In this document: positions 1-12,929 of the stretch, one piece after another
Layout of the letters: each line of letters starts with the position of its first letter
How positions within the stretch are numbered: the stretch's first letter is position 1
NCBI RefSeq assembly: GCF_000239295.1
Contig: NZ_JH417736.1
Location: forward strand, 1 to 43,355
Direction of reading: 5' to 3'
DNA from: Flavonifractor plautii ATCC 29863
GTDB taxonomy: Bacteria; Bacillota; Clostridia; Oscillospirales; Oscillospiraceae
Length of the DNA stretch: 43,355 nt
The notes under the pieces: model-generated
Seen by the model: only the letters and a program-made list of their open reading frames with translations
The model's database searches: none
What the model was told of the DNA's origin: nothing
Position numbers and translations under genes: made by a program

Positions 1-49
1 CAGGGACCTCCATCTCCCCCATTGAGTCCCGTTCTATCCGGTAGTCCAT
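1..49 (-). CDS. Class II fumarase/aspartase family, N-terminal fragment
   Basis: Only the first 16 codons lie in the window; the gene runs off the left edge. The start ATG at 47-49 follows AAGGAG at 8 nt spacing, and the peptide begins MDYRIERDSMGEMEVP. The RIExDSMGxxxVP pattern is the N-terminal signature of class II fumarase and aspartate ammonia-lyase (fumarate + water = malate, or aspartate = fumarate + ammonia). The DSMG wording leans toward fumarase, but the two cannot be separated from 16 residues. It lies in the same direction as, and 87 bp after, the MmgE/PrpD gene, with a hairpin between. It could consume fumarate made by the neighbouring lyase (inference). Confidence 0.7.
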   Translation of the reverse strand, partial: MDYRIERDSMGEMEVP

Positions 50-101
50 ATGTGGCTCTCCTTTCCTTATTCGCTCATTTTAGATTATACGGGATGTGTC
101 A

Positions 102-132
102 AATCCCCCGGCCCAGAACGAGCCGGGGGATT
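102..132 (-). terminator. Hairpin after the MmgE/PrpD gene
   Basis: An 11-bp perfect stem (AATCCCCCGGC paired with GCCGGGGGATT) with a 9-nt loop begins 5 bp after the MmgE/PrpD stop codon. On the minus strand it is followed by only a short weak T stretch, so termination may be partial and let some readthrough into the fumarase-like gene. Confidence 0.55.
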
Positions 133-136
133 CGGG

Positions 137-1498
137 TCATCGGAGAATGGGAACGGTCTGGCGCATGAGATTGGTAACGGCATCATCCTTCAGCTTCCAG
201 AGGGTCCTGCATAACACACGCGCCTGCTCCTCACCCAATACCGGGCGGGTACAGCGCAGGAATTTCTCCTCCAGCGCCTGATCCGAAATGGGATCTGTCC
301 GGTGTCCCACGGGATAAATGCGCTCTGTATGGTACTCTGTGCCATCCAATAGGGTGACGGATACGAAGGCAGGTCCTACTCCCATATCCACCGGGAGCGC
401 ATCATACCGCTCCGCATGGCAAAGATGAGTGGCTTTTATAATCCGTTGGATATCGGGCCGGAAGATAATCTTCTCTGTATAATTGTCCGGCATGTTGTCC
501 AACCCGCTCAAATAGAGGGCCACCTGAAACCCAACGCTGAACTTGGCCTCATCTCCGGTTCTGGGTTCGGGCGTCACCAGCTCACGCAGAGCGGCCGCAC
601 TCAGTTCCACCCGGATGGAGGCGATGTCCTCTGGTTGAAAATGATGTACTTGCGCCAAATCAACAAAGGCATCCACTGCACGGTGGGTACTGCTACAGGA
701 GGGATACTGTTTAATCGCAAACCCGGGGGTGCAGACATCGTATCGGTTTCCCAGGGTCTTGTACCAGTCTGAACCAAACGGGTCAAAGCGAAGCCCGGAA
801 TACTCGTAGAGGTAGCCCTCCCGGCCGTCCAGGGCGGAGGAGGAGGCGGTACAGCCTTCCCGGGCCAGACAGGCCGCCAGAAGTCCATCCGCAGCCGCCT
901 TGCCGATATGAAGCGACTTGGTGTCCGTCCCGAAGTTCTCCCGCACACCAGCCGCCATGGAGGCGGCAATTCCCAGGCAGTTTACAAGTTCCTTTTCCTT
1001 CAATTTCAAAAGATACGCGGCGCCCGCGGCGGCTCCAACAATACCGGTAACACTGCTGGCATGCCATCCCCGCTCGTGGAGGGCGTGAGCGCAAAGACGC
1101 CCCAGCTTGCACTCCACCTCGGTGGCTACGGCGAATGCACGTATCAGTTCTTCGCCAGGGCTGTTCAATTCTTCCCCCAGTGCCAGCAGAGCGGGCAGCA
1201 CAGCCACGGTGGGGTGCCCCAGATTGGAGCTGGAGGTGTCATCCAACTCCAGCTCGTGGCCGCTGATACCGTTCAGGAACGCCGCATCTCGCGCGGAAAA
1301 GCCTCCGCCAATCCCCGCCAGAGTGGCTTTCCCGGCCCGCGGAATAACCCGCGCAGCTTTTTCTACCACCCCGGTACGGCTGCCAAGGACCATAGCCCCC
1401 ACAGTATCCAGAATAGAGCGGGTGCAGAGGTAGACCTCCTCCTCGCCCAGCGGTACTGGATGTTGAATAAAGTGTGCAAAGGCTTCTGACAGCGTCAT
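137..1498 (-). CDS. MmgE/PrpD family protein (epimerase or dehydratase)
   Basis: A full-length 453-residue MmgE/PrpD protein. Family landmarks are visible in order: HELELDDT near residue 82, GHPTVAVLPALLAL near 93, RGWHASSVTGIVGAAAG near 143, GTDTKSLHIGKAAADG near 190 and a KQYPSCSSTHRAVDAF block near 263. Characterised members include 2-methylcitrate dehydratase (PrpD), cis-aconitate decarboxylase and iminodisuccinate epimerase. No methylcitrate synthase or lyase is nearby, so a PrpD role is unsupported. The start overlaps the stop of the lyase gene by 4 nt (ATGA), implying translational coupling and a shared substrate. With a fumarase-superfamily lyase beside it, epimerisation of a succinylated amine is my preferred hypothesis. 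The family is certain; the substrate is not. Confidence 0.85.
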   Translation of the reverse strand: MTLSEAFAHFIQHPVPLGEEEVYLCTRSILDTVGAMVLGSRTGVVEKAARVIPRAGKATLAGIGGGFSARDAAFLNGISGHELELDDTSSSNLGHPTVAVLPALLALGEELNSPGEELIRAFAVATEVECKLGRLCAHALHERGWHASSVTGIVGAAAGAAYLLKLKEKELVNCLGIAASMAAGVRENFGTDTKSLHIGKAAADGLLAACLAREGCTASSSALDGREGYLYEYSGLRFDPFGSDWYKTLGNRYDVCTPGFAIKQYPSCSSTHRAVDAFVDLAQVHHFQPEDIASIRVELSAAALRELVTPEPRTGDEAKFSVGFQVALYLSGLDNMPDNYTEKIIFRPDIQRIIKATHLCHAERYDALPVDMGVGPAFVSVTLLDGTEYHTERIYPVGHRTDPISDQALEEKFLRCTRPVLGEEQARVLCRTLWKLKDDAVTNLMRQTVPILR

Positions 1499-3000
1499 GA
1501 CTCCTCCTCCCTAATTAATGCATCGGTCAGCTCCTCCAATCGGCTGGAGGCCCGCTTCAGTCGATCCCCTCGGGCCTTCCATTGACTGTCCAGCTCCTTC
1601 AGCCGTCCCCCTCCCCACTGGATCATTTCAGCCACACGTGCAGGACTGGGGCCTCCGATAAGGCTGCGGCGTTCCACATTCTGGACAGGATCCAGAGCGG
1701 CACGCAGCAGTTCCTCCGGCATGTCCACTTCTACCCCAAGCGCCTCCAGGCCCGCCCGGTGCAGGAGGTCCCGGCCAATTGCCTCACAGGGGATATGCTC
1801 CTCATGGGCCAGAAGCACCAGCCTGCCGACCAGCTTCTTGGCGGCCGCAAAGGACAGGCCCTGGCTGCGTACCAGCTCGTCTGCCAGCTCGGTCATGGTG
1901 GAAAAGCCTTTGCGGGTCATATCCAAAGCGCGCTCCCGATCCACCTCCAAAGTGCGTACAATCCCCTCCAGGAGATAGGCGCTGTCCATAACTCTCTGCG
2001 CGATTTCATAGTACAGGCTGACCACAAAGCCGGGCTCCCGCCCATTGCCTGGCGTATAGGCTTTCATGGTGTTGAACATCGTACTCAGGGCGCCATAGCT
2101 CCATTCCCCGGAATAGCGAAGTGTTTCCAGGGCCACGGGGTTGCGTTTTTGGGGCATGATGGTGCTGTAGGAGCAGTACTTCAAATTCAGGCGCGAGATG
2201 CCCACCTCTCCCATGTTCCACAACAGCAGGCTCTCCGCCATTCGGCCCACATTCTGGATAAAAATACACATGGCGCTGGCCGCCTCATAGGCGAAATCCA
2301 GGCTGGACGTGGCGTTCATAGAGTTCAGAAGCAGGCCGTCAAAGCCCAGCAGCTCGGCAACCCGCTCCCGGTTGATGGGAAAACCAGTCGTGGCGATGGC
2401 CGCGCCCCCCATAGGGCTCAGGTTGGTGTGGTCGTAGGCTGCCAGCAGGCGCTCCAGATCGCGGGCAAAGTTTTCGAACGCACTCAGATAGAAGTGCCCA
2501 AGTGTAACCGGCTGCGCATGCTGTGAGTGGTGTGTATAGCCCGGTATAATGGTATTTTTGTGCTCCTCTGCCTTTCGGAGCAGGGTATCCATCAGGAAGG
2601 AAACCGCTTCACACATATCCAGCAGTGTCTTTCTGGTATACATGCGTTCAATGGTCAAGTTCATATCATTGCGGGAACGGCCGGTGTGGAACTTTCCGCC
2701 TACTTCTATCCCCAGTTCCTCAATCAGCCATTCCTCCAGATTGGAGAAGAGATCCGTTAGGCCCGGCCGGCGGCCTGTAGCATCCGGTCCCGCGGCCAGG
2801 AGCTTACGCAGAGCCGCAGAAATGGCTCTGGCCTCCTTGTGTGTCAGTATGCCCTGCTCCCAAAGCATGCGGACGTGGGCAAAATGGTTTTCCATCTGCA
2901 TGGGGAAGGAAAGCTTGTCCTCCTGAATGGTGTCCTCCGTATGACGGTTCAGAATGACCATATCCCGGCCGTCATATTTGCTGCGCTCCGCTTCTGTCAT
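1495..3000 (-). CDS. Argininosuccinate lyase-like enzyme (fumarase superfamily)
   Basis: A 501-residue member of the aspartase/fumarase superfamily that eliminates fumarate from a succinylated amine. It carries the ASL block GGKFHTGRSRNDMN, a variant GYTHHSQHAQPVTLGH block, and the signature loop YSTIMPQKRNP that holds the catalytic Ser and Lys. In canonical ASL the loop reads GSSxMPQKKNP, so the Gly before the catalytic Ser is Tyr here, and the sequence is clearly divergent. No arginine biosynthesis genes are nearby; it sits in a sigma-54 operon between an NhaC-type carrier and an MmgE/PrpD protein. A catabolic C-N lyase acting on an N-succinyl amino acid or aminopolycarboxylate is likelier than a biosynthetic ASL. 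The ATG at 3000 was chosen because AAGGAG lies 12 nt upstream; the frame is open further, into the preceding gene. Confidence 0.82.
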   Translation of the reverse strand: MTEAERSKYDGRDMVILNRHTEDTIQEDKLSFPMQMENHFAHVRMLWEQGILTHKEARAISAALRKLLAAGPDATGRRPGLTDLFSNLEEWLIEELGIEVGGKFHTGRSRNDMNLTIERMYTRKTLLDMCEAVSFLMDTLLRKAEEHKNTIIPGYTHHSQHAQPVTLGHFYLSAFENFARDLERLLAAYDHTNLSPMGGAAIATTGFPINRERVAELLGFDGLLLNSMNATSSLDFAYEAASAMCIFIQNVGRMAESLLLWNMGEVGISRLNLKYCSYSTIMPQKRNPVALETLRYSGEWSYGALSTMFNTMKAYTPGNGREPGFVVSLYYEIAQRVMDSAYLLEGIVRTLEVDRERALDMTRKGFSTMTELADELVRSQGLSFAAAKKLVGRLVLLAHEEHIPCEAIGRDLLHRAGLEALGVEVDMPEELLRAALDPVQNVERRSLIGGPSPARVAEMIQWGGGRLKELDSQWKARGDRLKRASSRLEELTDALIREEES

Positions 3001-3032
3001 ATCGCAATCATACTCCTTTTTCTCATGCGTTG

Positions 3033-4550
3033 TTACTTGGACTCCGCGGCCTTCACTCCCCACAGCCTGCAGGAGAGGAGGTAAAATACGATCAGCAGAG
3101 CCAGGGCGACCACCAGCATAATCCAGATATTTGCATTGGTGAAGCCCAGAATCAGGTAGGCCACAAAGCTGGCCAGCGCCGCGATTCCCGCATAGGGGAG
3201 TTGGGTACGGGTGTGCTCCAGCAGATCACATCCGGCAGCCATTGCGGACATCACCGTCGTATCGGAAATGGGCGAGCAGTGGTCGCCAAACAGGCAGCCG
3301 GACAGCACCGCGCCAATTGTCATGGGGATGGACACCCCAAAACCGACGGCCATATTGATGCCGATCGGAAGCAGGATCGCCATGGCCCCCCACGAAGTAC
3401 CTGTGGCAAAGGAGATAATGACGCCCACCAGGAACAGCAGGGCGGGTACCACATGCGGAGTGATCAGCCCCAGCGTGGAATCCACAATAAACTGAGAGGT
3501 TCCAAGATCCTTGCAGACAGAGCCCACGCCCCAGGCCAGGACCACGACGACCAGGACGGAGCCCATCTTTTGAATACCGCCGATGAACACGTCGAAGGTT
3601 TCCTTAAAGCTCATCAACTTCTGGGCCGTAATCATAATCATACATACGATAGAGGCCAGCAGATAACCGGAGGTCAGAGCAATGCGGATTTTGGAGCCGG
3701 GAATGTTCTGGAACGGGAACCCCCAACTGACAAACATCACTAGGATGGTCCCCAACAGGATCACCAGGGGCAGGATCATATTCCAGGGAGACACCTTCTT
3801 GTCATCGGATACCAGGATGGCCTCGTCGTCCGAGATGTTCTGCGGCAGTCCCAGACGCGCCTGCTCCTCCGCCTTGGCCATGAATCCAAAGTCGTGTCTG
3901 CCAAACGCCACAATTGGAATCAGGAAGAGTGCGAGAATGGAGTAAAATTGATAGGGAATCGCCGCCATGAAGGTGGAGGCGTCAGAGCCGTTGATGCCGA
4001 GCGTTTCAAACTCGGTCGCAATAATGCTCATGATATAGACGCCCCAGCCGGTGATGGGAATCAGAATACAGACTGGTGAGGAGGTGGAGTCCAAAATATA
4101 GGACAGCTTTGCCCTGGATGCCTTGAGACGGTCAAAGATGGGGCGGAACATGGGCCCCAGAATGAGGCTGTTGCCAGAGTCGGAAAAGAAGATGACCAGC
4201 CCGCCCAGCCAGGCCGCCAGCTGCGCTTTTACTTTGCTGTTGACGCTGTTTGCCACGGCCTTTGCAAATGCCCGTGCCCCGCCGGATTTCTCGATCAGGG
4301 CTACAAAGCCGCCCACGGTCGCCATCATTACGATCGTCTGGGGATTGTTGTCTGTCGCCAGATCGACAAACAGATAGTCGCTGAACAGGTGCTGCAGGGA
4401 GAGCCAGGGGTTGGCGCCCACTTGGATCATGATGCCGAGGAACAGGCTGATTGCCAGGGAGAGCACTACGTTGCGGGTGGCAAAGGCCAGCACGACTGCT
4501 ACAACAGCCGGAATGAGAGACAGCCAGCCATAGTTGATGACTTCTTCCAT
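3033..4550 (-). CDS. NhaC-family Na+/H+ or organic anion antiporter
   Basis: A 505-residue polytopic membrane protein with roughly a dozen hydrophobic segments and no signal peptide. It matches the NhaC ion-transporter family: an N-terminal ATRNVVLSLAISLFLG segment, a conserved FFSDSGNSLILGP stretch near residue 120, and a GTSWGAMAILLPIG stretch near 378 followed by LFGDHCSPISDTT. The family contains Na+/H+ antiporters but also the malate/lactate exchanger MleN, so it may carry the organic acid used by the next two genes. It is first in the operon, with AGGAGG 5 nt before its ATG. A sigma-54 promoter and activator-type boxes lie directly upstream. Substrate unknown. Confidence 0.85.
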   Translation of the reverse strand: MEEVINYGWLSLIPAVVAVVLAFATRNVVLSLAISLFLGIMIQVGANPWLSLQHLFSDYLFVDLATDNNPQTIVMMATVGGFVALIEKSGGARAFAKAVANSVNSKVKAQLAAWLGGLVIFFSDSGNSLILGPMFRPIFDRLKASRAKLSYILDSTSSPVCILIPITGWGVYIMSIIATEFETLGINGSDASTFMAAIPYQFYSILALFLIPIVAFGRHDFGFMAKAEEQARLGLPQNISDDEAILVSDDKKVSPWNMILPLVILLGTILVMFVSWGFPFQNIPGSKIRIALTSGYLLASIVCMIMITAQKLMSFKETFDVFIGGIQKMGSVLVVVVLAWGVGSVCKDLGTSQFIVDSTLGLITPHVVPALLFLVGVIISFATGTSWGAMAILLPIGINMAVGFGVSIPMTIGAVLSGCLFGDHCSPISDTTVMSAMAAGCDLLEHTRTQLPYAGIAALASFVAYLILGFTNANIWIMLVVALALLIVFYLLSCRLWGVKAAESK

Positions 4551-4566
4551 AAGAACCTCCTATTCT

Positions 4567-4599
4567 TCACGTATGATGGTTCAGTCTTCCATAATGCAC
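4567..4599 (-). CDS. Possible 10-residue leader peptide ahead of the NhaC-type gene
   Basis: A GTG codon preceded by AAGGAGG at 7 nt opens a 10-codon frame (MHYGRLNHHT) ending in TGA 17 nt before the antiporter ATG. It lies at the very 5' end of the mRNA predicted from the sigma-54 promoter. The ribosome site is stronger than most real ones in the window. It has two adjacent His codons but no obvious attenuator hairpin. It may instead act only as a ribosome standby site. Speculative. Confidence 0.25.
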   Translation of the reverse strand: MHYGRLNHHT

Positions 4600-4627
4600 C
4601 GGGTTACCTCCTTCTTTCTTTTAATAG

Positions 4628-4643
4628 TGCAAACCGTGTGCCA
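4628..4643 (-). promoter_or_regulatory. Sigma-54 (-24/-12) promoter of the NhaC/lyase/PrpD operon
   Basis: On the minus strand the sequence reads TGGCACACGGTTTGCA, a perfect match to TGGCAC-N5-TTGCA. There are exactly 10 nt between the GG (-24) and GC (-12) dinucleotides. Predicted transcription starts near 4617, about 67 nt before the antiporter ATG. A sigma-54 activator gene lies immediately upstream. Confidence 0.85.
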
Positions 4644-4722
4644 AATAAATTTACATTATCAGGGAAATTAACAGCATCTTTCTCATATTAAGATCACAGG
4701 GAAGCAAAAAATCAATGTTATA

Positions 4723-4831
4723 AGAGCGACAGGCGACGAATTTTCGTCGCCTGTCGCTCTCAATCATAGGTTGTATACGGTTCAACGTCGCCTTATTGAC
4801 AATTATTCGTCTTAAATGACAATTTTTTGTC
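4723..4831. promoter_or_regulatory. Three GAC-N8-GTC boxes, candidate activator binding sites
   Basis: Three 14-bp boxes share GAC(G/A)A(A/T)T(T/A)TT(C/T)GTC. They lie at 4735-4748, 4798-4811 and 4818-4831, with centres 63 and 20 bp apart (about 6 and 2 helical turns), so they face the same side of the DNA. The first is the core of a perfect 18-bp inverted repeat (4723-4740 and 4743-4760). They sit about 110-195 bp upstream of the -12 element, the usual range for sigma-54 enhancers; the third overlaps the activator's stop codon. The repeat lacks a T-tract, so it is not a convincing terminator. Confidence 0.65.
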
Positions 4832-6227
4832 ATTCAATCATTAACCCATACTTACGAATCTTATACTGCAGCGTGGTTCTCGGGATCTGCAGAAGTGCCG
4901 CCGCCTCCACAATTTTGCCGCCACAGGACATCAATGCCTGCAAAATCAGTTTTTTCTCATACAAGCCCATAGTTTCCGGCAGTGAAAGCGTTGGCTCCGT
5001 ATTCTTCTGATGAATTTCCGGAGGCTCCCTCATGGTCAAATAAGCGGGCAGGTGCTCCAGAGAGAGCACGCTTCCCTCTCCCAAAACATTGAGTGCCGCT
5101 TCAATGGCATGCTCCAACTCCCGCACATTGCCGTGCCATCTGCAATTGCTCAGAAAAAGAATCGTCTCCTGGGCCATCTGGGGGACCGGCCGGCCTAACA
5201 CCCTGCTGTACTTATAAAGGAAATACTCGGATAGCAACGGGATATCGTCCGGCCGCTGGTTCAGGGGTGGAATCGCCAATGTCACGGTGTTGAGGCGATA
5301 CAGCAGATCGGGACGCAATTCTCCATTCCGCACCAACTCATCGGGTGGACAGTTGGAGGAGGAGACGATACGAACGTCAACCGCAATAGGCTGTGTACTT
5401 CCCAACGGCATGACCTGTTTTTCCTGAAGCACTCTCAGCAGCTTTGCCTGGAGATTGAGCGGCATGGAGTTAATCTCGTCCAAATACAGAGTTCCCCCAT
5501 CCGCCTCCTGAAAAAGGCCTTTTCGGTTTTCCGCCCCGGTAAAGGCCCCCTTCCGGGAGCCAAAAAGCAGTCCTTCCAAAATACTCTCGGGCAGAGCGGC
5601 GCAGTTTACCGCCACAAAAGGCTTGGCCTTCCGATAGCTGGCATTGTGGAGCGAGGACGCTACCAACTCCTTGCCGGTTCCCGTCTCTCCACAAATCAAT
5701 ACAGAGGATGTGCTGTTGGCTACCTTTCCAATCGTCTCCTTTAAACGGAGCATCCCTGAATTTTGGGTTATGATATCGGTCAAGCTGTAGCGGGCCGCGG
5801 CACTGCGGGGGGCAGGCGGAGTCTGACTGGGCGGTACGGGGTGAATACGATTGTCAATATGTGTGATGTCTCGTGAAATTTCCACGGCACCTACAATTTT
5901 GCCCCGAAAAATAATCGGAAAATTCAGATTGTTGCATACCGTTTTCCTGCCCTGGAGATTCCATGCCTCCTGATTTTCAATGTATATAATTTTTCCGGTA
6001 TGAAGAACCTGCAGCAGCGTGCTGTCTTCCGGACTTAAAGAGGGGAAGAGCTCCAGCAAGTTCTTGCCCAGCGCCCACTGATTATGAGCCAGATTCTCTT
6101 CATCCGTATAGCGTGGATTAAACCTCTGCTTTGCAATAATTCTCCCCGTGCTGTCAATGACGGTGACAGAATCCACATAGTTCAAATTTTCACTCAGCCA
6201 TCGCATGGCGATTTCCTTGGTGTCCAC
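4830..6227 (-). CDS. Sigma-54-dependent transcriptional activator (PAS-AAA-Fis)
   Basis: An activator of 465 residues. A PAS-like sensor covers about residues 15-125 (SVTVIDSTGRIIA through IVGAVEISRDIT). The AAA+ domain has Walker A GETGTGKE near 180, the sigma-54 contact loop GAFTGA near 227 and Walker B TLYLDEI near 246. A Fis-type helix-turn-helix (AAALLQIPRTTLQYKIRKYG) ends the protein. There is no receiver domain, so it probably senses a small ligand. The usual ESELFG before the loop is EGLLFG here, but GAFTGA is intact. GTG at 6227 was chosen because GAGGAGG lies 8 nt upstream and a good -35/-10 promoter lies just before it; ATG at 6206 is possible. It most likely drives the adjacent NhaC/lyase/PrpD operon. 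Confidence 0.9.
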   Translation of the reverse strand: MDTKEIAMRWLSENLNYVDSVTVIDSTGRIIAKQRFNPRYTDEENLAHNQWALGKNLLELFPSLSPEDSTLLQVLHTGKIIYIENQEAWNLQGRKTVCNNLNFPIIFRGKIVGAVEISRDITHIDNRIHPVPPSQTPPAPRSAAARYSLTDIITQNSGMLRLKETIGKVANSTSSVLICGETGTGKELVASSLHNASYRKAKPFVAVNCAALPESILEGLLFGSRKGAFTGAENRKGLFQEADGGTLYLDEINSMPLNLQAKLLRVLQEKQVMPLGSTQPIAVDVRIVSSSNCPPDELVRNGELRPDLLYRLNTVTLAIPPLNQRPDDIPLLSEYFLYKYSRVLGRPVPQMAQETILFLSNCRWHGNVRELEHAIEAALNVLGEGSVLSLEHLPAYLTMREPPEIHQKNTEPTLSLPETMGLYEKKLILQALMSCGGKIVEAAALLQIPRTTLQYKIRKYGLMIE

Positions 6228-6278
6228 GCCTTCAGCCTCCTCTGCTTTGCAAATAAACAGTTCTGCTCCTTTCCCGCT

Positions 6279-6307
6279 ATCATAGCATAGACCCAACACA
6301 GCGGCAA
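6279..6307 (-). promoter_or_regulatory. Vegetative promoter of the first sigma-54 activator
   Basis: Reading the minus strand, TTGCCG (6302-6307), a 17-bp spacer and TATGAT (6279-6284), with TG one base before the -10 (extended -10). The start would be near 6272, giving a 45-nt leader before the GTG at 6227. This argues against the longer open frame that begins at 6314. Confidence 0.55.
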
Positions 6308-6455
6308 GCCTCACGCCTGCACTTCTGTCAACTTTACCTATTCCACCGATGGTATGTCAGCCATGAGACCATACAAGTACCGGTATGGTTGGCCGCGGAG
6401 GCGCTTTTGGACTCCGGATGCGTCGCGCATATGTGGGAATCTGAAAAGGAAAAGA

Positions 6456-6523: not shown

Positions 6524-8224
6524 CTATTTCTCCAGCTCGATAATGGCGCCGCGGTCCGCAGAGCTGACGTGGGCGGCGTATTTGGCCAGAGCCGGGCCGC
6601 GTGGCTTGACCAGAGGCTTCCAGACGGCCCGGCGGCGCTCAAGCTCCTCCGGGGAGACCTTCAGCTCAAGGCGGCGGGCCGCGATGTCAATGAAAATTTC
6701 ATCGCCGTCCTCCACCAGGGCGATGGGGCCGCCAGCGGCCGCCTCCGGGGAGATATGCCCGATGCAGGGGCCATGTGTGGCGCCGGAGAAGCGCCCGTCG
6801 GTGACCAAGGCGCAGTCCTCGTCCATACCCCGGCCCATGATGAGGGCGGTGGTGGAGAGCATCTCCCGCATGCCGGGCCCCCCCTTGGGGCCCTCATACC
6901 GGATGACCAGGACGGTGCCCTTCTCAATGGTCCCGGCGCTCACCGCCGCGTCCGCCTCCTCCATGGAATTGAACACCCGCGCCCGGCCGGAGAACCGGTA
7001 CATGGAGGGCTTGACACCCGACTGCTTTACCACAGCCCCGTCGGGGGCCAGGCTTCCGCAGAGCACGGCAATGCCGCCCTCCGGCTTCTGGGGGTGCTCC
7101 ATGGTGCGGATCACGTCGTTCTCCACAGGCTCCACGGCGTCCAGCATCTGACCCAGGGTCTTTCCTGCGACGGTCATCACGTCCCGGTGGAGCTTGGGCT
7201 CCACGTTTTTCAGCACCGCCGGAATGCCGCCGCAGGCGTCCATGGAGACGATGGGGTATTTGCCGGAGGGCTGGAGGTTACATACGAAGGGCACCTCCCG
7301 GCTGATGCGGTCGAAGTCGTCCAGTGTCAGCTCCACGCCGGCCTCGTGAGCGATGGCCAGCAGGTGGAGCACCAGATTGGTGGAGGAGCCGGTGGCCATG
7401 GCCCCCGCCACGCCGTTGAGCAAAGCCTCCCGCGTGAGGATTTGCCGGGGGGTGATGCCCCGGCGCAGCAGCTCCATGACCTGCCGGCCGGACTGCTTGG
7501 CGATGCGCTTGCGGCGGTTGGACACCGCCGGAGCGGTGCCGCAGCCGGGCAGGGACATGCCCAGCACCTCTGTGAGCATACACATGGAGTTGGCGGTACC
7601 CAGGTGGGCGCAGCTTCCCACGGTGGGCAGGGCGGCCTCCTCGGCCTTCTTCATCTCTTCCACGGTACAGCTCCCCTGCTCCACCCGGCCGGGGAATTCC
7701 CGCAGCTCACTGGAGCAAAACAGAGGGTTGCCGCCCACGTTGCCGGGCAGCATGGGGCCGCCGGTGACCACGATGGCGGGGATGTCCAGCCGGGCGGCGG
7801 CCATGAGCATGCCGGGTATGATCTTGTCGCAGCCGGGGATGAGCACCATGGCGTCAAAGTGGTGGGCCTGCACCACCATTTCGATGGAGTCGGCGATGAG
7901 ATCCCGGCTGGGCAGAGGGTAGCGCATACCGCAGTGGCCCTGGCACAGGCCGTCGCAGATGGCGATGGTGCCGGTTTCGCGGGGGATGCCGCCCCCCTCC
8001 AGGATGCCGTATTTCACCTGCTCGGCCAGTTCCCGCATGTGCATGTGGCCGGGAACCATCTCGCTGAAGGAGTTGATCACCGCCACAAAGGGCTTTTTCA
8101 TGTCCTCCTCGTCCATGCCGGTGGCGTAGAGCAGGGCCCGTTGGCCGGTGCGGGCCACGCCGTTGGTCAGCTCACTGCTGGCCAGGCCGGGGTTCTTGAG
8201 CTGAAAGTCCCAGTCACAATCCAT
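6524..8224 (-). CDS. IlvD/Edd family dehydratase, probably acting on a sugar acid
   Basis: A 566-residue member of the IlvD/Edd family of iron-sulfur dehydratases, which convert 2,3-dihydroxy acids to 2-keto-3-deoxy acids. Cluster and metal-site motifs are present: CDGLCQGHCGMRYPLPSRD near residue 90, LIPGCDKIIPGM near 127 and SMDACGGIP in the middle. The C-terminal half has the usual GGPGMREM and TDGRFSGATHGPCIGHISPEA blocks. There are no branched-chain amino acid genes around it. It is the last gene of an operon with a tripartite tricarboxylate transporter and an altronate dehydratase, so a pentonate or hexonate dehydratase is likelier than dihydroxy-acid dehydratase. The start has GGGAGG 5 nt upstream; the gap from the previous gene is 12 nt. 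Confidence 0.88.
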   Translation of the reverse strand: MDCDWDFQLKNPGLASSELTNGVARTGQRALLYATGMDEEDMKKPFVAVINSFSEMVPGHMHMRELAEQVKYGILEGGGIPRETGTIAICDGLCQGHCGMRYPLPSRDLIADSIEMVVQAHHFDAMVLIPGCDKIIPGMLMAAARLDIPAIVVTGGPMLPGNVGGNPLFCSSELREFPGRVEQGSCTVEEMKKAEEAALPTVGSCAHLGTANSMCMLTEVLGMSLPGCGTAPAVSNRRKRIAKQSGRQVMELLRRGITPRQILTREALLNGVAGAMATGSSTNLVLHLLAIAHEAGVELTLDDFDRISREVPFVCNLQPSGKYPIVSMDACGGIPAVLKNVEPKLHRDVMTVAGKTLGQMLDAVEPVENDVIRTMEHPQKPEGGIAVLCGSLAPDGAVVKQSGVKPSMYRFSGRARVFNSMEEADAAVSAGTIEKGTVLVIRYEGPKGGPGMREMLSTTALIMGRGMDEDCALVTDGRFSGATHGPCIGHISPEAAAGGPIALVEDGDEIFIDIAARRLELKVSPEELERRRAVWKPLVKPRGPALAKYAAHVSSADRGAIIELEK

Positions 8225-8236
8225 ATCCGCCTCCCA

Positions 8237-9766
8237 TTAAGCCAGCACGCCGATGGGCCAGGGCACAAACTCGTTTTCACCCACGCCCAGCAGTTCGCTC
8301 TTGCTCCTATCGCCGGAGGCCACTTGGAGGATACGCTCAAAGATGAGCTGCCCCATCTCGTCCAGATCCTTTTCACCGTCGATGATGACCCCGCAGTTGA
8401 TATCCATGTCCCCCTCCATCCGCTGGTACATGGGGGTGTTGCTGGCCAGCTTGAGCACGGGGGAGGGCACACCGCCGAAGCAGGAGCCGCGGCCGGTGGT
8501 GAAGGCCACCATGGTGGCGCCGCCAGCCACCTGGCCGGTGGTGGCCACAGGGTCGTAGCCGGGGGTATTCATAAAGACCAGGCCGTGCTCGGTGACCTTT
8601 TCGGCGTAGTCGTACACCTCGTTCAGGGCGGTCTCGCCCCCCTTCTTGGCGCCGCCCAGGGATTTCTCCAGCACATTGGCCAGGCCGCCCTTGTTGTTGC
8701 CCGGGCTGACACGGCCGTTGATCTGGCAGTCCTTGCCCTCGTTGTACTTCAGCCACCAGTTGATGTGATCCACCAGCTTCTGCCCCACCTCCGGCGTACG
8801 GGCCCGGCGGGTGAGGGTGTGCTCCACGCCGAAGATCTCAGTGGTCTCGGAGAGGATGGCGGTGCCGCCGTTTTTCACCAGCAGGTCCACCGCCCGGCCC
8901 AGGGCGGGGTTGGCGGACAGGCCGGAGAAGCCATCGCTGCCGCCGCACTCCAGGGCCAGCACCAGGTGCTCGGCGGAGACGGTCTGCCGCCGGCAGGCGT
9001 TGACCACGGGCAGCAGCTGCTCCACCCTGCGGATGCCCTCCTCCACGGCCTTGGCGGTGCCGCCCACGTCCTGGATCACCAGCTTCTGGAGGGTCTCACT
9101 CTCCTGGAGACCGGCGTGCTCAAACATGCCGTCGATGTTGTTGCGCTCACAGCCCAGGGCCGTCACGATGGCCGCGCCCAGATTGGGGTTGGTGGCATAG
9201 CCCATGATGGTGCGGCGGAGCAGATCCATGAAGGGACCGGTCATCTCCATGCCGCAGCCCAGGCCGGTGACGAAGGGCACCACTCCGCTGACGTTGGGGT
9301 AGGCGGCCAGACGCTCCGGGGTGAAGTGGTTGGCGATCTTCCGGGCCACGGTGGCGGCGCAGTTGCTGGCCACCAGAATGCCGATGTAGTTGCGGGTGGC
9401 CACCCGGCCGTCGGGGCGGACGAAGCCCTGGAAGGTGGCCCGCTGCTCCGGAGGCAGGAGCTCGGTGGGGTGATAGTCCCGGCTGAAGGCGTAATCCAGA
9501 TCCACGTGCTCAAAGACAATGTTGTGGCTGTGCATCATGGTGCCGGCGGGGGTGTCCTCCGCTGCAAAGCCGATGCAGGTGTTATACTTGAGAATCGGCT
9601 CCCCCTTCCGGATGTCCCTGGCCGCAGCCTTGTAGCCCGCGGGCACCTCGGTACGGGTGGTAAAGCCCTCGCTCTCCACTGCCATGCCGGCGGGCACGTC
9701 CCGGCGGGCCACCACCACATTGTCCTTCTGGTTCAGGCGAATAAAAGGAGAAATCTCCCGTTTCAT
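8237..9766 (-). CDS. UxaA-family altronate dehydratase
   Basis: A 509-residue UxaA-family protein, about the size of E. coli altronate dehydratase. The N-terminal SAF-like domain (residues 1-95, NVVVARRDVPAGMAV onward) is followed by the large GD-AH domain, starting at GFVRPDGRVATRNYIGILVA and containing ALECGGSDGFSGLSANPALG. The family removes water from D-altronate or galactarate to give 2-keto-3-deoxy acids. The ATG at 9766 is supported by AGAGG upstream; the open frame extends about 36 codons further but has no family similarity there. It sits between tctC and the IlvD/Edd gene. Altronate is possible, but without uxaB or a tagaturonate gene nearby another aldonate is equally likely. Confidence 0.88.
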   Translation of the reverse strand: MKREISPFIRLNQKDNVVVARRDVPAGMAVESEGFTTRTEVPAGYKAAARDIRKGEPILKYNTCIGFAAEDTPAGTMMHSHNIVFEHVDLDYAFSRDYHPTELLPPEQRATFQGFVRPDGRVATRNYIGILVASNCAATVARKIANHFTPERLAAYPNVSGVVPFVTGLGCGMEMTGPFMDLLRRTIMGYATNPNLGAAIVTALGCERNNIDGMFEHAGLQESETLQKLVIQDVGGTAKAVEEGIRRVEQLLPVVNACRRQTVSAEHLVLALECGGSDGFSGLSANPALGRAVDLLVKNGGTAILSETTEIFGVEHTLTRRARTPEVGQKLVDHINWWLKYNEGKDCQINGRVSPGNNKGGLANVLEKSLGGAKKGGETALNEVYDYAEKVTEHGLVFMNTPGYDPVATTGQVAGGATMVAFTTGRGSCFGGVPSPVLKLASNTPMYQRMEGDMDINCGVIIDGEKDLDEMGQLIFERILQVASGDRSKSELLGVGENEFVPWPIGVLA

Positions 9767-9846
9767 ACCGCATACCTCTTTTACAATCGGATGGGACTGC
9801 CCCGCCCACGGGCGAGGCAGTCCATGTGTTCTTGTGGGAGAGGGGC

Positions 9847-10866
9847 TCAGGCTGCCGCGTTGGCCGCGGCCCACAGATCCTCATACTCAGTCTGGATATC
9901 CGCCAGCTGGCTCTCGTAGTCGGCCGGGGACAGGTAGGTAGGCTCGTTGCCCAGATCCAGGATGGCCTGCTGCACCTCTTCGTCCTCCATCAGCTCTGCC
10001 ACTGCGGTATCAAAGGTGTCCTGAATGTCCTTGGGGGTGTCCTTGGGCAGGAAGAAGCCGAATTCATATCCATTGTAGAGCCAATCCACGCCCTGTTCCT
10101 TGGCTGTGGGCACGTCGGGATAGACTGCGCTGCGCTCCTCGGCCGGGAAGCCCAGGGCCACAAAGTCACCGGACTCGATATAGCCCTTGGCCGTAGAGTA
10201 CTGGTTGGGCATGATATCGATATGGCCGCCCAGCAGCGCGGTGCACTTGTCGGAGTTGGAGCCCACATCTACCAGGTTAAACTGCACGCCGGTGGCCGCC
10301 TCAAAGGACTTGACCATCATGTAGGTAAAGCCGCCCACCTCGACGCCCATGGTGACCTCTCCGGGGTGCTCCTTGCAGTAATCAATCAGCTCCGGATAGG
10401 TGCTGTAGGGGGCGTCGGCGCTGACATAGAATCCAGTGGCATTGTCGGTGACCACGTGGGGCCCCACAGCGAAGCCCTCGTAGGAGTAGTCGGACACGCC
10501 GGTGACATTGTTGATCAGCAGGGCATTGTGGAAGAAGAGGATGGTGTTGCCGTCTGGGGCGGCCTCATGAACCTGGTTGATGCCGCTGGAGCCGCCGGCG
10601 CCGGTGACATTGACCACCACAAAGGACTGTCCCAACTTGGCCGTCAGTTTCTCGGCCAGAACACGGGCCAGCAGATCGGTACCGCCCCCGGCGCTGGCAG
10701 GGACAACAATGGATACCGGGCCGGAGGGCCACCCTCCGCCTGAGGCGGAGCCTGTATTACCGGCGGCATCAGGGGATTCGGTGTTCTCGCTGGTGCTGCC
10801 GCAGCCGGCCAGCAGGGTTCCAACCAGAGCGGCTCCAGTGATAAGGGCAAGCAGTCTCTTTTTCAT
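9847..10866 (-). CDS. tctC: Tripartite tricarboxylate transporter binding lipoprotein TctC
   Basis: A 339-residue Bug/TctC solute-binding protein. It has a lipoprotein signal ending LLAGC (Cys22), then a Gly/Ser-rich linker and the binding domain. The binding domain starts with WPSGPVSIVVPASAGGGTD and includes VVNVTGAGGSSGINQV, typical of the family's carboxylate pocket. It captures an organic acid outside the membrane and hands it to TctA/TctB. AAGGAGG lies 9 nt before the ATG at 10866. It follows tctA by 44 nt and precedes the altronate dehydratase by 80 nt. The neighbouring dehydratases suggest a sugar acid rather than citrate as ligand (inference). Confidence 0.93.
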   Translation of the reverse strand: MKKRLLALITGAALVGTLLAGCGSTSENTESPDAAGNTGSASGGGWPSGPVSIVVPASAGGGTDLLARVLAEKLTAKLGQSFVVVNVTGAGGSSGINQVHEAAPDGNTILFFHNALLINNVTGVSDYSYEGFAVGPHVVTDNATGFYVSADAPYSTYPELIDYCKEHPGEVTMGVEVGGFTYMMVKSFEAATGVQFNLVDVGSNSDKCTALLGGHIDIMPNQYSTAKGYIESGDFVALGFPAEERSAVYPDVPTAKEQGVDWLYNGYEFGFFLPKDTPKDIQDTFDTAVAELMEDEEVQQAILDLGNEPTYLSPADYESQLADIQTEYEDLWAAANAAA

Positions 10867-10910
10867 GGGAAAATCCTCCTTAGTGAATATTGATTTCGAT
10901 CTCAATGGGC

Positions 10911-12428
10911 TCAAGCCGCACCCGCAGTCTCCTTTTTGCGGTTGCGCACCTGCTTGATTACCGTCCACACCACGAACAGCACCGCGGCCACCATAAACAC
11001 AGCGGCGATGGGGTGGGTGAAGAAAGCCAAAAAGTCGTTCTGGGTCAGCATCAGGCCCCGGCGCAGGTTGGTCTCCAGCAGGTCGCACAGAATGAAGCTG
11101 AGGATGAAAGGAGCCACGGGGATCTTAAACTTGCTCATCAGGTAGCCCAGCACGCCGAAGATCACGATGGACTGGGCATCAAAGATACGGTTGTTGGTGG
11201 CGAAGGCGCCCACGGTACACAGCACCAGCACCACAGGGAGCAGGATGTACTTTGGGATACTCAGCAGACGGACAAAAATCCGCATGCCGCCCAGCTCAAG
11301 CACCAGCATGACCACGTTGGCCAGAATGCAGGCGATGAAGATGGTGTAGATGAGGTCTGCGGACTCCACAAAGAGCAGGGGTCCGGGGGTGAGGCCGTGG
11401 ATCATAAAGGCCCCCAGCAGCATGGCCGTCACACCGTCGCCGGGGATGCCCAGGGTCAGCAGGGGGATGAGGGCGCCGCCGATGACTGCGTTGTTGGAGG
11501 TCTCGGAGGCCACCACGCCGTCCATGATCCCAGTGCCGTACTTCTCCGGGTGCTTGGAGGTCTTTTTGGCGGTCATCCAGGAGAGAATACCGGCGGTGGA
11601 GCCCCCGATGCCGGGCAGGATACCGATGCCGGTACCGATGAGGGCGGAGCGCAGTGCGTTCCACTTCTGCCCCACGAACTCCTTCCAGGTGAATCCGAAG
11701 CCCTTGATTTTAAAGCTCTGCTTGATCTGAGTGGCCTTTCCCATCTTTTTGACCTCTTCAGCGTAGGCCAGCACCTCCGCAATGGCAAAGATGCCGATCA
11801 GGGTAGGCAGGATGTCAAAGCCGGAGGACAGTTCGTTGATACCGAAGGTGAATCGCTTGGTTCCATCAATGGGCGCCATACCCACCAAGGCAATGATCAG
11901 GCCCAGGCAGCCGGAGAGCAGTCCCTTGATCATGCTGGTGCCCGCCAGGGCGGCGATCATAGAGAGGGCAAAGAGGCACACGCCGAAGTACTCGATGGCG
12001 GAAAACTTCAGGGTAATCTGCGCCACGGAAGGGGCCACGAACATAAGCACCAGGAAGGAGAACAGGCCGCCCAGGAAGGAGAATACCACTCCGGTACCCA
12101 GAGCCTTGCCCGCCTCACCCTTTTTGGCCATGGGGGAGCCATCGAAGCAGGTGGCGATGGAGGAGGAGGTGCCGGGGATGTTGATGAGGATGGCAGAGAT
12201 CAGGCCGCCGGAGATCCCGCCGATGTAGAGCGCCACGAGTAGGGTGAACGCCTCATGGGCCTGCATGGCGAAGGTGACCGGCAGGAAGAGGGCCACCGCC
12301 ATGGCGGCGGACAGGCCTGGGATGGAGCCGAACACAATGCCCACCGCGACACCGACGATCAGCAGCAGAATGGACATGGGGTTCATCATCCCGGCAAATG
12401 CGTTTCCAATCAGGGATAAGGTTTCCAT
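10911..12428 (-). CDS. tctA: Tripartite tricarboxylate transporter large subunit TctA
   Basis: A 505-residue membrane protein of the TctA family with about twelve hydrophobic segments. Diagnostic stretches are GIVFGSIPGLSAAMA near residue 30 and GISGGLISAILINIPGTSSS near 73. A second copy of the Gly/Pro-rich motif, GTGIGILPGIGGSTAGI, lies near 242, as expected for the family's internal duplication. It forms the sodium-coupled transport channel with TctB and receives ligand from TctC. AAAGGAGG lies 8 nt upstream of the ATG, and tctB ends 15 nt before it. Confidence 0.95.
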   Translation of the reverse strand: METLSLIGNAFAGMMNPMSILLLIVGVAVGIVFGSIPGLSAAMAVALFLPVTFAMQAHEAFTLLVALYIGGISGGLISAILINIPGTSSSIATCFDGSPMAKKGEAGKALGTGVVFSFLGGLFSFLVLMFVAPSVAQITLKFSAIEYFGVCLFALSMIAALAGTSMIKGLLSGCLGLIIALVGMAPIDGTKRFTFGINELSSGFDILPTLIGIFAIAEVLAYAEEVKKMGKATQIKQSFKIKGFGFTWKEFVGQKWNALRSALIGTGIGILPGIGGSTAGILSWMTAKKTSKHPEKYGTGIMDGVVASETSNNAVIGGALIPLLTLGIPGDGVTAMLLGAFMIHGLTPGPLLFVESADLIYTIFIACILANVVMLVLELGGMRIFVRLLSIPKYILLPVVLVLCTVGAFATNNRIFDAQSIVIFGVLGYLMSKFKIPVAPFILSFILCDLLETNLRRGLMLTQNDFLAFFTHPIAAVFMVAAVLFVVWTVIKQVRNRKKETAGAA

Positions 12429-12443
12429 CAGTTGCGCCTCCTT

Positions 12444-12929
12444 TTAACCCAGTATGCCGGCGGGCAGCATGACATTCAGACCGAACCGGAAGATAAAGTA
12501 AACCGCGACGCACACCACGACGGCGATCACCGCGAACAGGATGATCCCTTTGATGCCCCGCTTCTCTTTGGGCGCCAGGATAGTGATCTGTGCAAACAGA
12601 TACACGATGGAGCTGAGGAGGAAGCCCGCCGGCTCAATGACAAACACATATACGGTGAATGCCGCGATGGTGGCCAGCACCCGCAGGTACTCCGGCTTCT
12701 CCTCCTCCGCTCCTTCATTCGGCTGGAAGCTTCGCATGGTGCGGAATCCGGCACGGATTTGAAAGAAGGAGAGGATGCAGGTAATGATGGCCAGAACCTT
12801 CGGCATGAAGTCGGAGCCAAGTCCCCCCATCAGGCTGGGCGGCAGTGCGCTGGCCGCCAGGAAGAGGGCGATGGAAAGAATCAGGAAGAATACGCCCGCA
12901 GCCAGATCCCCGAACTTTTTCAAGAACAT
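12444..12929 (-). CDS. tctB: Tripartite tricarboxylate transporter small subunit TctB
   Basis: A 161-residue protein with four hydrophobic segments, the layout of TctB. It starts MFLKKFGDLAAGVFFL, and the second segment is reached after a short LPPSLMGGLGSDFMPK loop that is typical of the family. It pairs with TctA in the membrane. It is the first gene of the tctBAC-uxaA-ilvD unit; no regulator gene is attached, so control may come from the CdaR-type gene at 20070 or from elsewhere. Confidence 0.9.
   Translation of the reverse strand: MFLKKFGDLAAGVFFLILSIALFLAASALPPSLMGGLGSDFMPKVLAIITCILSFFQIRAGFRTMRSFQPNEGAEEEKPEYLRVLATIAAFTVYVFVIEPAGFLLSSIVYLFAQITILAPKEKRGIKGIILFAVIAVVVCVAVYFIFRFGLNVMLPAGILG

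Follow-up and report, generated by a model that had tools for sequence, protein, structure and literature searches.

A sigma-54-controlled operon of Flavonifractor plautii with a predicted role in the breakdown of 2-substituted succinates

We analysed the first 43,355 bases (the window) of contig NZ_JH417736.1 from Flavonifractor plautii ATCC 29863 and describe an operon at its very beginning that joins an NhaC-family carrier, a lyase of the argininosuccinate lyase (ASL) superfamily and an MmgE/PrpD-family protein. We consider it probable that this operon, under sigma-54 control, serves to break down a 2-substituted succinate. The substrate would most likely be an amine or amino acid carrying an N-(1,2-dicarboxyethyl) group, a class that includes iminodisuccinate (IDS) and ethylenediamine-N,N'-disuccinate (EDDS). 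The NhaC protein would import (or exchange) the polyanionic substrate. The MmgE/PrpD protein would remove the C2 proton of the succinyl half and re-add it on the opposite face, making both configurations usable. The lyase, acting on one configuration only, would take the C3 proton and split the C2-X bond, yielding fumarate together with HX (an amine or amino acid); fumarase and malic enzyme would carry the fumarate on to malate and pyruvate. The MmgE/PrpD protein and the lyase would recognise a single chemotype: succinate that bears a leaving group on C2. The proposal draws on gene order, promoter, conservation, family membership, aligned active-site residues and gene neighbourhood, from which we infer the catalytic steps, their stereochemistry, transport and the nature of X.

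The contig (C120; 70,428 bases) belongs to a genome of 3.82 Mb in 242 contigs; own-genome contigs are labelled C26, C43, C120 and C202, and related loci L009 to L021 and so on. On the minus strand the operon runs from the NhaC gene (3033-4550; 505 residues) through the lyase gene (1495-3000; 501 residues) and the MmgE/PrpD gene (137-1498; 453 residues) into the start of a fumarase-type gene (1-49). All Pfam matches were above cut-off: Na_H_antiporter (PF03553) at 188 bits for the carrier, Lyase_1 (PF00206) at 160 bits and ASL_C2 at 32 bits for the lyase, and MmgE_PrpD_N (PF03972) at 174 bits and MmgE_PrpD_C (PF19305) at 113 bits for its partner. The stop codon of the lyase gene and the start codon of the MmgE/PrpD gene share the ATGA at 1498-1495. 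Although the open frame of the lyase gene reaches a GTG at 3063, the ATG at 3000 is more likely its start, because AGGAG precedes it and relatives have a start codon at the equivalent place. Upstream of the carrier gene lies the sigma-54 promoter TGGCACACGGTTTGCA (4628-4643, minus strand), the only match in the window to the pattern TGGCACNNNNNTTGCW; shuffled windows contained a mean of 0.07 matches, with one present in 6 of 100 shuffles. The site is 93 bases upstream of the NhaC ATG. It is preceded by the gene of a sigma-54-dependent activator (4830-6314, minus strand; 494 residues from the first GTG, start uncertain; Sigma54_activat, PF00158, 212 bits; HTH_8, 44 bits), which presumably controls the operon. 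Between regulator gene and promoter sits a perfect 19-bp hairpin (4721-4762, minus strand; fold of 4690-4790, -39.3 kcal/mol, z -7.2) that may be the terminator of the regulator gene or an activator site.

These features bear out a sequence-only reading of the same DNA, which had proposed a sigma-54 operon of these three families with a translationally coupled lyase and MmgE/PrpD pair; genes, promoter, Pfam families and coupling were all confirmed. That reading placed the operon at 1-4550, which holds the operon genes and leaves the promoter and the regulator outside. Its fumarase/aspartase-type gene is indeed next in line, with just 16 codons present (MDYRIERDSMGEMEVP) because the stretch begins at base 1 of the contig. 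The missing part did not turn up in the genome assembly: a search with the fumC model gave four matches, namely a complete gene other than this one on C202, a pair of weak matches (42 bits) and the operon lyase. A full-length class II fumarase gene near the same operon in L009 scores 704.4 bits against the TIGR00979 cut-off of 664.75, and this gene together with the 16 residues suggests that the contig-end gene is of the class II fumarase type.

Eight other loci carry an operon-type lyase (61-82% identity), five of them found by contig search and three taken from whole genomes; the contig search returned ten loci, of which five from Methanococcoides (26-29% identity over part of the protein) were left out. 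The nearest named relatives of the lyase lie on contigs labelled Flavonifractor sp. and Oscillospiraceae bacterium, which makes an anaerobe of the gut the likely host. Regulator, NhaC, lyase and MmgE/PrpD genes are grouped in seven of the eight other loci, all from Oscillospiraceae, with the regulator orthologue directly upstream of NhaC and NhaC conserved beside the lyase in seven of eight. Counting the window, 8 of 9 loci pair the lyase with an MmgE/PrpD gene. In five of these eight (the window, L009, L019, L020 and L021) the pair overlaps or is separated by no more than 4 bases, and the gap is 131-146 bases in the other three. Not every locus is an independent case, as L010 and L011 are almost the same. 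All eight NhaC-bearing loci, the window included, have a sigma-54 site upstream of NhaC that matches 10-12 of the 12 consensus bases and starts 73-128 bases from the gene. Few genomes have the operon lyase. Within the family, 4 of 250 carry it at E<=1e-100, the own genome included; in a sample of the order only the own genome among 245 does, and in a set of 398 genomes drawn from the phylum the top match to the lyase profile outside the own genome scores 354 bits (own, 969). Plasmid records matched the lyase (269), the MmgE/PrpD protein (193) and IDS-epimerase (138), and no lyase/MmgE pair was annotated in the nine plasmid neighbourhoods examined (five reached via the lyase, four via MmgE or IDS-epimerase). 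We found no paper describing this cluster in the open-access literature.

The lyase passes the argH model TIGR00838 (334.2 bits; cut-off 279.5). We built a tree of 46 rows, including 29 loci that the phylum search returned in addition to that of the window (a subset of all matches). In it the nine operon lyases make up a single clade (support 100/100) outside a 16-row ASL clade (100/100) that contains the E. coli and Thermus thermophilus ASL and a lyase encoded on contig C43 of the own genome. The ASL signature, KKNPD plus AYNKDxQEDKE, is present in all 16 ASL-clade rows and in none of the nine operon lyases, every one of which carries KRNPV and YxxGNGREPG at these places. The second signature segment binds the arginine side in ASL. 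The C43 lyase is 31% identical to the operon lyase and is encoded directly beside an ArgG-like gene, among other arginine-synthesis-type genes (neighbours named from their N-termini). We rejected an identity as ArgH on account of the missing signature and this separate ArgH. All nine operon lyases retain the GRSRND segment and a serine aligned with Ser280 of EDDS lyase, which we take to be the catalytic serine (numbered by counting along the alignment). The profile search of solved structures puts EDDS lyase clearly ahead (6rx8 and 6g3d, 319 and 318 bits; next an argininosuccinate lyase, 222 bits), and Foldseek with the lyase model also ranks it first (E-value 5e-25 versus 1e-19). The best tree does not join operon and EDDS lyases in a clade, a grouping that the approximately unbiased (AU) test does not reject (p 0.078), and places the operon lyases with ASL on one side of a branch with support 46/17. 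Asp290, one of six residues near the substrate of EDDS lyase (PMC12363623), is Val in all nine operon lyases and is also missing from 20 of the 21 rows outside the operon and ASL groups. Our comparisons thus support well that the operon protein would work like a fumarate-releasing C-X lyase, and EDDS lyase is its nearest solved relative by profile score, with the operon lyases in a clade of their own.

For the MmgE/PrpD protein, the profile search of solved structures ranks IDS-epimerase first (2hp3/2hp0, 258 bits), followed by 7bra (214 bits) and cis-aconitate decarboxylases (162-175 bits), and IDS-epimerase also gives the highest Foldseek TM-score (0.83). In a tree of 55 rows (including 29 loci returned by the search besides the window's own, not all matches), the eight operon proteins form one clade (100/100) with L032 as sister (99/97). 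IDS-epimerase groups with the YxeQ rows (88/93). For AU groups chosen after inspection of the tree, a clade of operon proteins with IDS-epimerase (p 0.116) and one that adds YxeQ and L032 (p 0.24) are not rejected, and one with the YxeQ rows alone is rejected (p 0.003). A clade with cis-aconitate decarboxylase alone is likewise rejected (p 0.0018). The sequence-only reading had named clustering with methylcitrate dehydratases as counter-evidence. By score and structure we rejected 2-methylcitrate dehydratase: the protein scores 50.6 bits against the NF042438 cut-off of 950, no methylcitrate dehydratase is among the ten PDB sequences that its profile matched, and Foldseek identity to methylcitrate dehydratase structures is 14-19%. 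The tree separates them less firmly; E. coli PrpD falls outside the operon clade in the best tree, on a very long branch, and the AU test does not reject a joint clade (p 0.10).

All characterised members of the MmgE/PrpD family act on substrates with a 1,4-dicarboxylate backbone, with C2 enolate chemistry proposed, and the residues described for methylsuccinate isomerase are His88, Glu91, His102, His152, Lys202, Lys266 and Tyr148 (PMC12290011). In IDS-epimerase the two bases are His99 and Tyr145, and the active site of 7bra, published as Bacillus subtilis IRG1 (bsIRG1), includes R100 and Y146 (PMC7347537). The eight operon proteins all keep H81, E84, H95, H146, K194 and K263, and with them the carboxylate-holding residues and the counterpart of the catalytic His99; E84 aligns with an Asp in IDS-epimerase. 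The correspondence with methylsuccinate isomerase was drawn by approximate spacing and through the rows of IDS-epimerase and 7bra.

Release of fumarate by the operon would lead one to expect enzymes that use it nearby. Class I fumarase alpha and beta genes lie near the operon lyase in five of the eight other loci (L010, L012, L013, L020 and L021), a class II fumarase gene in one (L009) and a malic enzyme gene in five (L009, L010, L011, L013 and L020), so that fumarase occurs in six of eight, and fumarase, malic enzyme or both in seven. A distant relative, L100 (lyase identity 37%), likewise has a superfamily lyase in the vicinity of genes for class I fumarase and malic enzyme.

Several observations weigh against the succinate-adduct pathway proposed here. 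The second base of IDS-epimerase, Tyr145, is His141 in all eight operon proteins, and the Arg of its RGHP segment is Leu93. Since histidine can act as a second base, epimerisation would still be the likeliest reaction, by an enzyme unlike known epimerases at this position. Human cis-aconitate decarboxylase comes first by Foldseek E-value, from an MmgE/PrpD model of moderate confidence, and pairwise identity is 31.0% to IDS-epimerase and 33.8% to a cis-aconitate decarboxylase. For the lyase model the TM-scores overlap (0.77-0.79 for EDDS lyase, 0.74-0.79 for ASL), and pairwise identity is 35.3% to EDDS lyase and 37.1% to T. thermophilus ASL. The two structure models have mean predicted local distance difference test (pLDDT) scores of 78.7 and 77.6, with values below 50 in the active-site loops (MmgE 85-96, lyase 264-286). 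We recognised no gene for handling HX in the block, so X is not fixed. At the level of whole loci, the 14.2-kb contig of L012 lacks NhaC, regulator and MmgE/PrpD genes and carries the lyase close to class I fumarase genes, and L019 has neither fumarase nor malic enzyme nearby. An MmgE/PrpD gene can also accompany fumarase without such a lyase. On C26 of the own genome (78-3011; L123) a second MmgE/PrpD gene adjoins the alpha gene of a class I fumarase (252 bits) and an apparent beta gene, and the lyase search of the genome gave no match on this contig. L105 (G599:C69, 107-10008) has an MmgE/PrpD gene near class I fumarase, a tripartite ATP-independent periplasmic (TRAP) carrier and apparent fumarate-reductase genes, again without such a lyase; the MmgE/PrpD proteins of L032/L105 are the closest outside the operon clade.

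The last arrangements bear on a quite improbable alternative, that the MmgE/PrpD protein and the lyase act on two different compounds that merely both feed fumarate, for example an enzyme that isomerises or dehydrates some other dicarboxylate, next to an unrelated lyase of succinyl compounds. MmgE/PrpD with fumarase and no lyase, on C26 and in G599, and the L012 lyase without MmgE/PrpD are what this alternative would lead one to find; the pairing in eight of nine loci and the tight spacing in five of eight, with the ATGA overlap here, argue for a joint substrate. If the substrate is joint, it may be IDS itself: its isomers would be interconverted, the lyase would yield fumarate and aspartate, and an aspartase would make more fumarate from the latter. 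IDS-epimerase and EDDS lyase are the nearest solved relatives by profile score, C202 of the own genome encodes an aspartase/fumarase-family protein that reads as AspA by eye, and the Arg-Glu pair of GNGREPG, present in all nine lyases, could hold an amino-acid product, as the segment at this position lines the amine side in ASL. We nevertheless judge this specific substrate to be rather unlikely. We know of no natural gut source of IDS, the two IDS-epimerase positions differ in every operon MmgE/PrpD protein, and these proteins do not group with IDS-epimerase in the best tree, although the AU test does not reject that grouping. The lyase might instead serve to consume argininosuccinate. It passes the argH model, and the weakly supported branch leaves it a possible neighbour of the ASL clade; the missing signature, the separate ArgH on C43 and the lack of any recognised arginine-degrading gene among the neighbours examined make this role very unlikely.

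On the precedent of the yxe pathway, the substrate might also be an adduct of fumarate with a thiol, namely S-(2-succino)cysteine or a related compound; this is unlikely, if worth mention ahead of the others. In some yxe loci 2SL replaces YxeK, and YxeQ is given there as a protein of unknown function (PMC9706529); 7bra-like proteins sit in the yxe-like loci L116 and L091. The same source gives 2SL a preference for an N-acetyl substrate, yet relatives of YxeK, YxeL and YxeP are absent from all nine operon loci at E<=1e-5, and a clade of the operon MmgE/PrpD proteins with the YxeQ rows alone is the one that the AU test rejected. Between an N-succinyl amino acid or amine and an S- or O-adduct, the former appears likelier by analogy, because the nearest studied lyases, EDDS lyase and ASL, act on C-N bonds. 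An amino acid would fit well with the conserved Arg-Glu pair of the product-side segment.

Of the uptake, epimerisation, C-N cleavage and fumarate use envisaged by the sequence-only reading, what is supported is a two-enzyme succinate module that would feed fumarate towards malate and pyruvate. The kinds of enzyme it named are the top profile matches, IDS-epimerase and EDDS lyase, and neither is a grouping partner in the best trees. A part in arginine synthesis, which it had named as counter-evidence, has become unlikely. Its focus on IDS is not supported, with two active-site positions changed, and C-N is not fixed against C-S or C-O. The reading is in this sense partly supported: the reaction class is plausible, the closest relatives are right, and IDS is one candidate among several.

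The yxe locus offers a parallel that supports a wider rule, by which some MmgE/PrpD proteins accompany succino-cleaving enzymes, and it also keeps the improbable thiol adduct in view. In L116 (3413-10047), the last gene of an apparently complete yxe-like locus encodes a protein with 60% identity to 7bra (the genes there were identified by their order and N-termini), and L091 has a 41% relative among YxeK-, YxeL-, YxeM- and YxeO-like genes. From these contexts 7bra, presented in print as a cis-aconitate decarboxylase homologue, is very probably YxeQ, and it lies outside the cis-aconitate decarboxylase clusters (PMC12290011). Fifty plasmid records matched 7bra; in seven of the eight neighbourhoods examined, a flavin-dependent or nitrilotriacetate (NTA)-type monooxygenase is encoded within about 3 kb of the MmgE/PrpD gene, and in one none is annotated. 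Tentatively, and with some doubt, we suggest that MmgE/PrpD proteins beside succino-cleaving enzymes (this operon, the IDS degraders, YxeQ) may be one functional kind, C2-epimerases through which a stereoselective partner enzyme can salvage both configurations of an adduct, with YxeQ acting as an S-(2-succino)cysteine epimerase and the Oscillospiraceae operon as a gut pathway devoted to recovering fumarate from succinated amino acids, amines or thiols of food or host. On the same tentative view, fumarate adducts such as N-(1,2-dicarboxyethyl) amino acids, fructose-aspartate and S-(2-succino) compounds would form without stereocontrol.

Some neighbouring genes are recorded here in their own right. 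A proline-racemase-family gene lies directly upstream of the regulator in L019 (3218-4213), L020 (5063-6037) and L021 (13302-14276) and could possibly provide a second stereochemical step on substrate or product; the own genome has none. An enolase-superfamily (MR/MLE) gene lies near the operon in L009 and L011. In the window, 6524-12929 beside the regulator holds a gene of the dihydroxy-acid dehydratase family, one resembling galactarate dehydratase (359 bits; cut-off 731) and apparent tripartite tricarboxylate carrier genes, perhaps a sugar-acid cluster. Five distant lyases share a similar segment, [GS]HxR[DE]. Two of them, in L100 and L102, are EDDS-lyase-like and lie near octopine-dehydrogenase-family genes (3549-4625 and 7481-8581, respectively) and TAXI-type TRAP carriers, which may mark another route for opine-like or N-succinyl compounds. 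A third, from A. vitis, is encoded beside ATP-binding cassette (ABC) permeases. EDDS-lyase-like genes of other Firmicutes (L097, L098, L099 and L101) also stand among ABC-carrier genes, which include an SBP_bac_6-type binding protein in L097 and were judged by N-termini in the other three.

If the proposed pathway is correct, it would give gut bacteria a compact anaerobic route for feeding on succinate adducts, and give the IDS-epimerase/EDDS-lyase pair of enzymes a physiological setting. To our knowledge, pairs of this kind come chiefly from degraders of synthetic chelators. The pathway would also point to a role, open to experimental test, for YxeQ and further MmgE/PrpD proteins without an assigned function; members of this largely uncharacterised family occur in 19.2% of species in a GTDB set (PMC12290011). 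C-N lyases of the EDDS-lyase group serve as biocatalysts (PMC12363623). A partner epimerase would make both configurations usable in such applications.

Compared with EDDS lyase of Chelativorans sp. BNC1 (6g3d), the operon lyase retains the catalytic serine position and GRSRND, and differs in the Asp290-to-Val exchange and in its separate clade in the best tree. We know of no MmgE/PrpD partner for the Chelativorans enzyme. The closest precedent for the pair is IDS degradation in Agrobacterium tumefaciens BY6, where IDS-epimerase (2hp3) works with a stereoselective C-N lyase (PMC7347537). As in that system, an MmgE/PrpD protein and a C-N lyase would share one 2-substituted succinate, here proposed from sequence, and the BY6 epimerase is the best profile match among solved structures; unlike it, the operon has His for the second base Tyr and Leu for the RGHP Arg, and comes with NhaC, sigma-54 control and a neighbourhood of fumarase and malic enzyme. 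The yxe locus likewise sets an MmgE/PrpD protein beside a succino-removing enzyme (YxeQ with YxeK or 2SL; PMC9706529), in that case from a different clade. Racemisation of a substituted succinate at C2 by an MmgE/PrpD protein has been shown for the (S)-(R)-methylsuccinate isomerase encoded in the itaconate cluster (PMC12290011), whose residues have counterparts here except that Tyr148 is replaced by His141, and the Flavonifractor operon has an adjacent lyase in place of the coenzyme A enzymes of that cluster.

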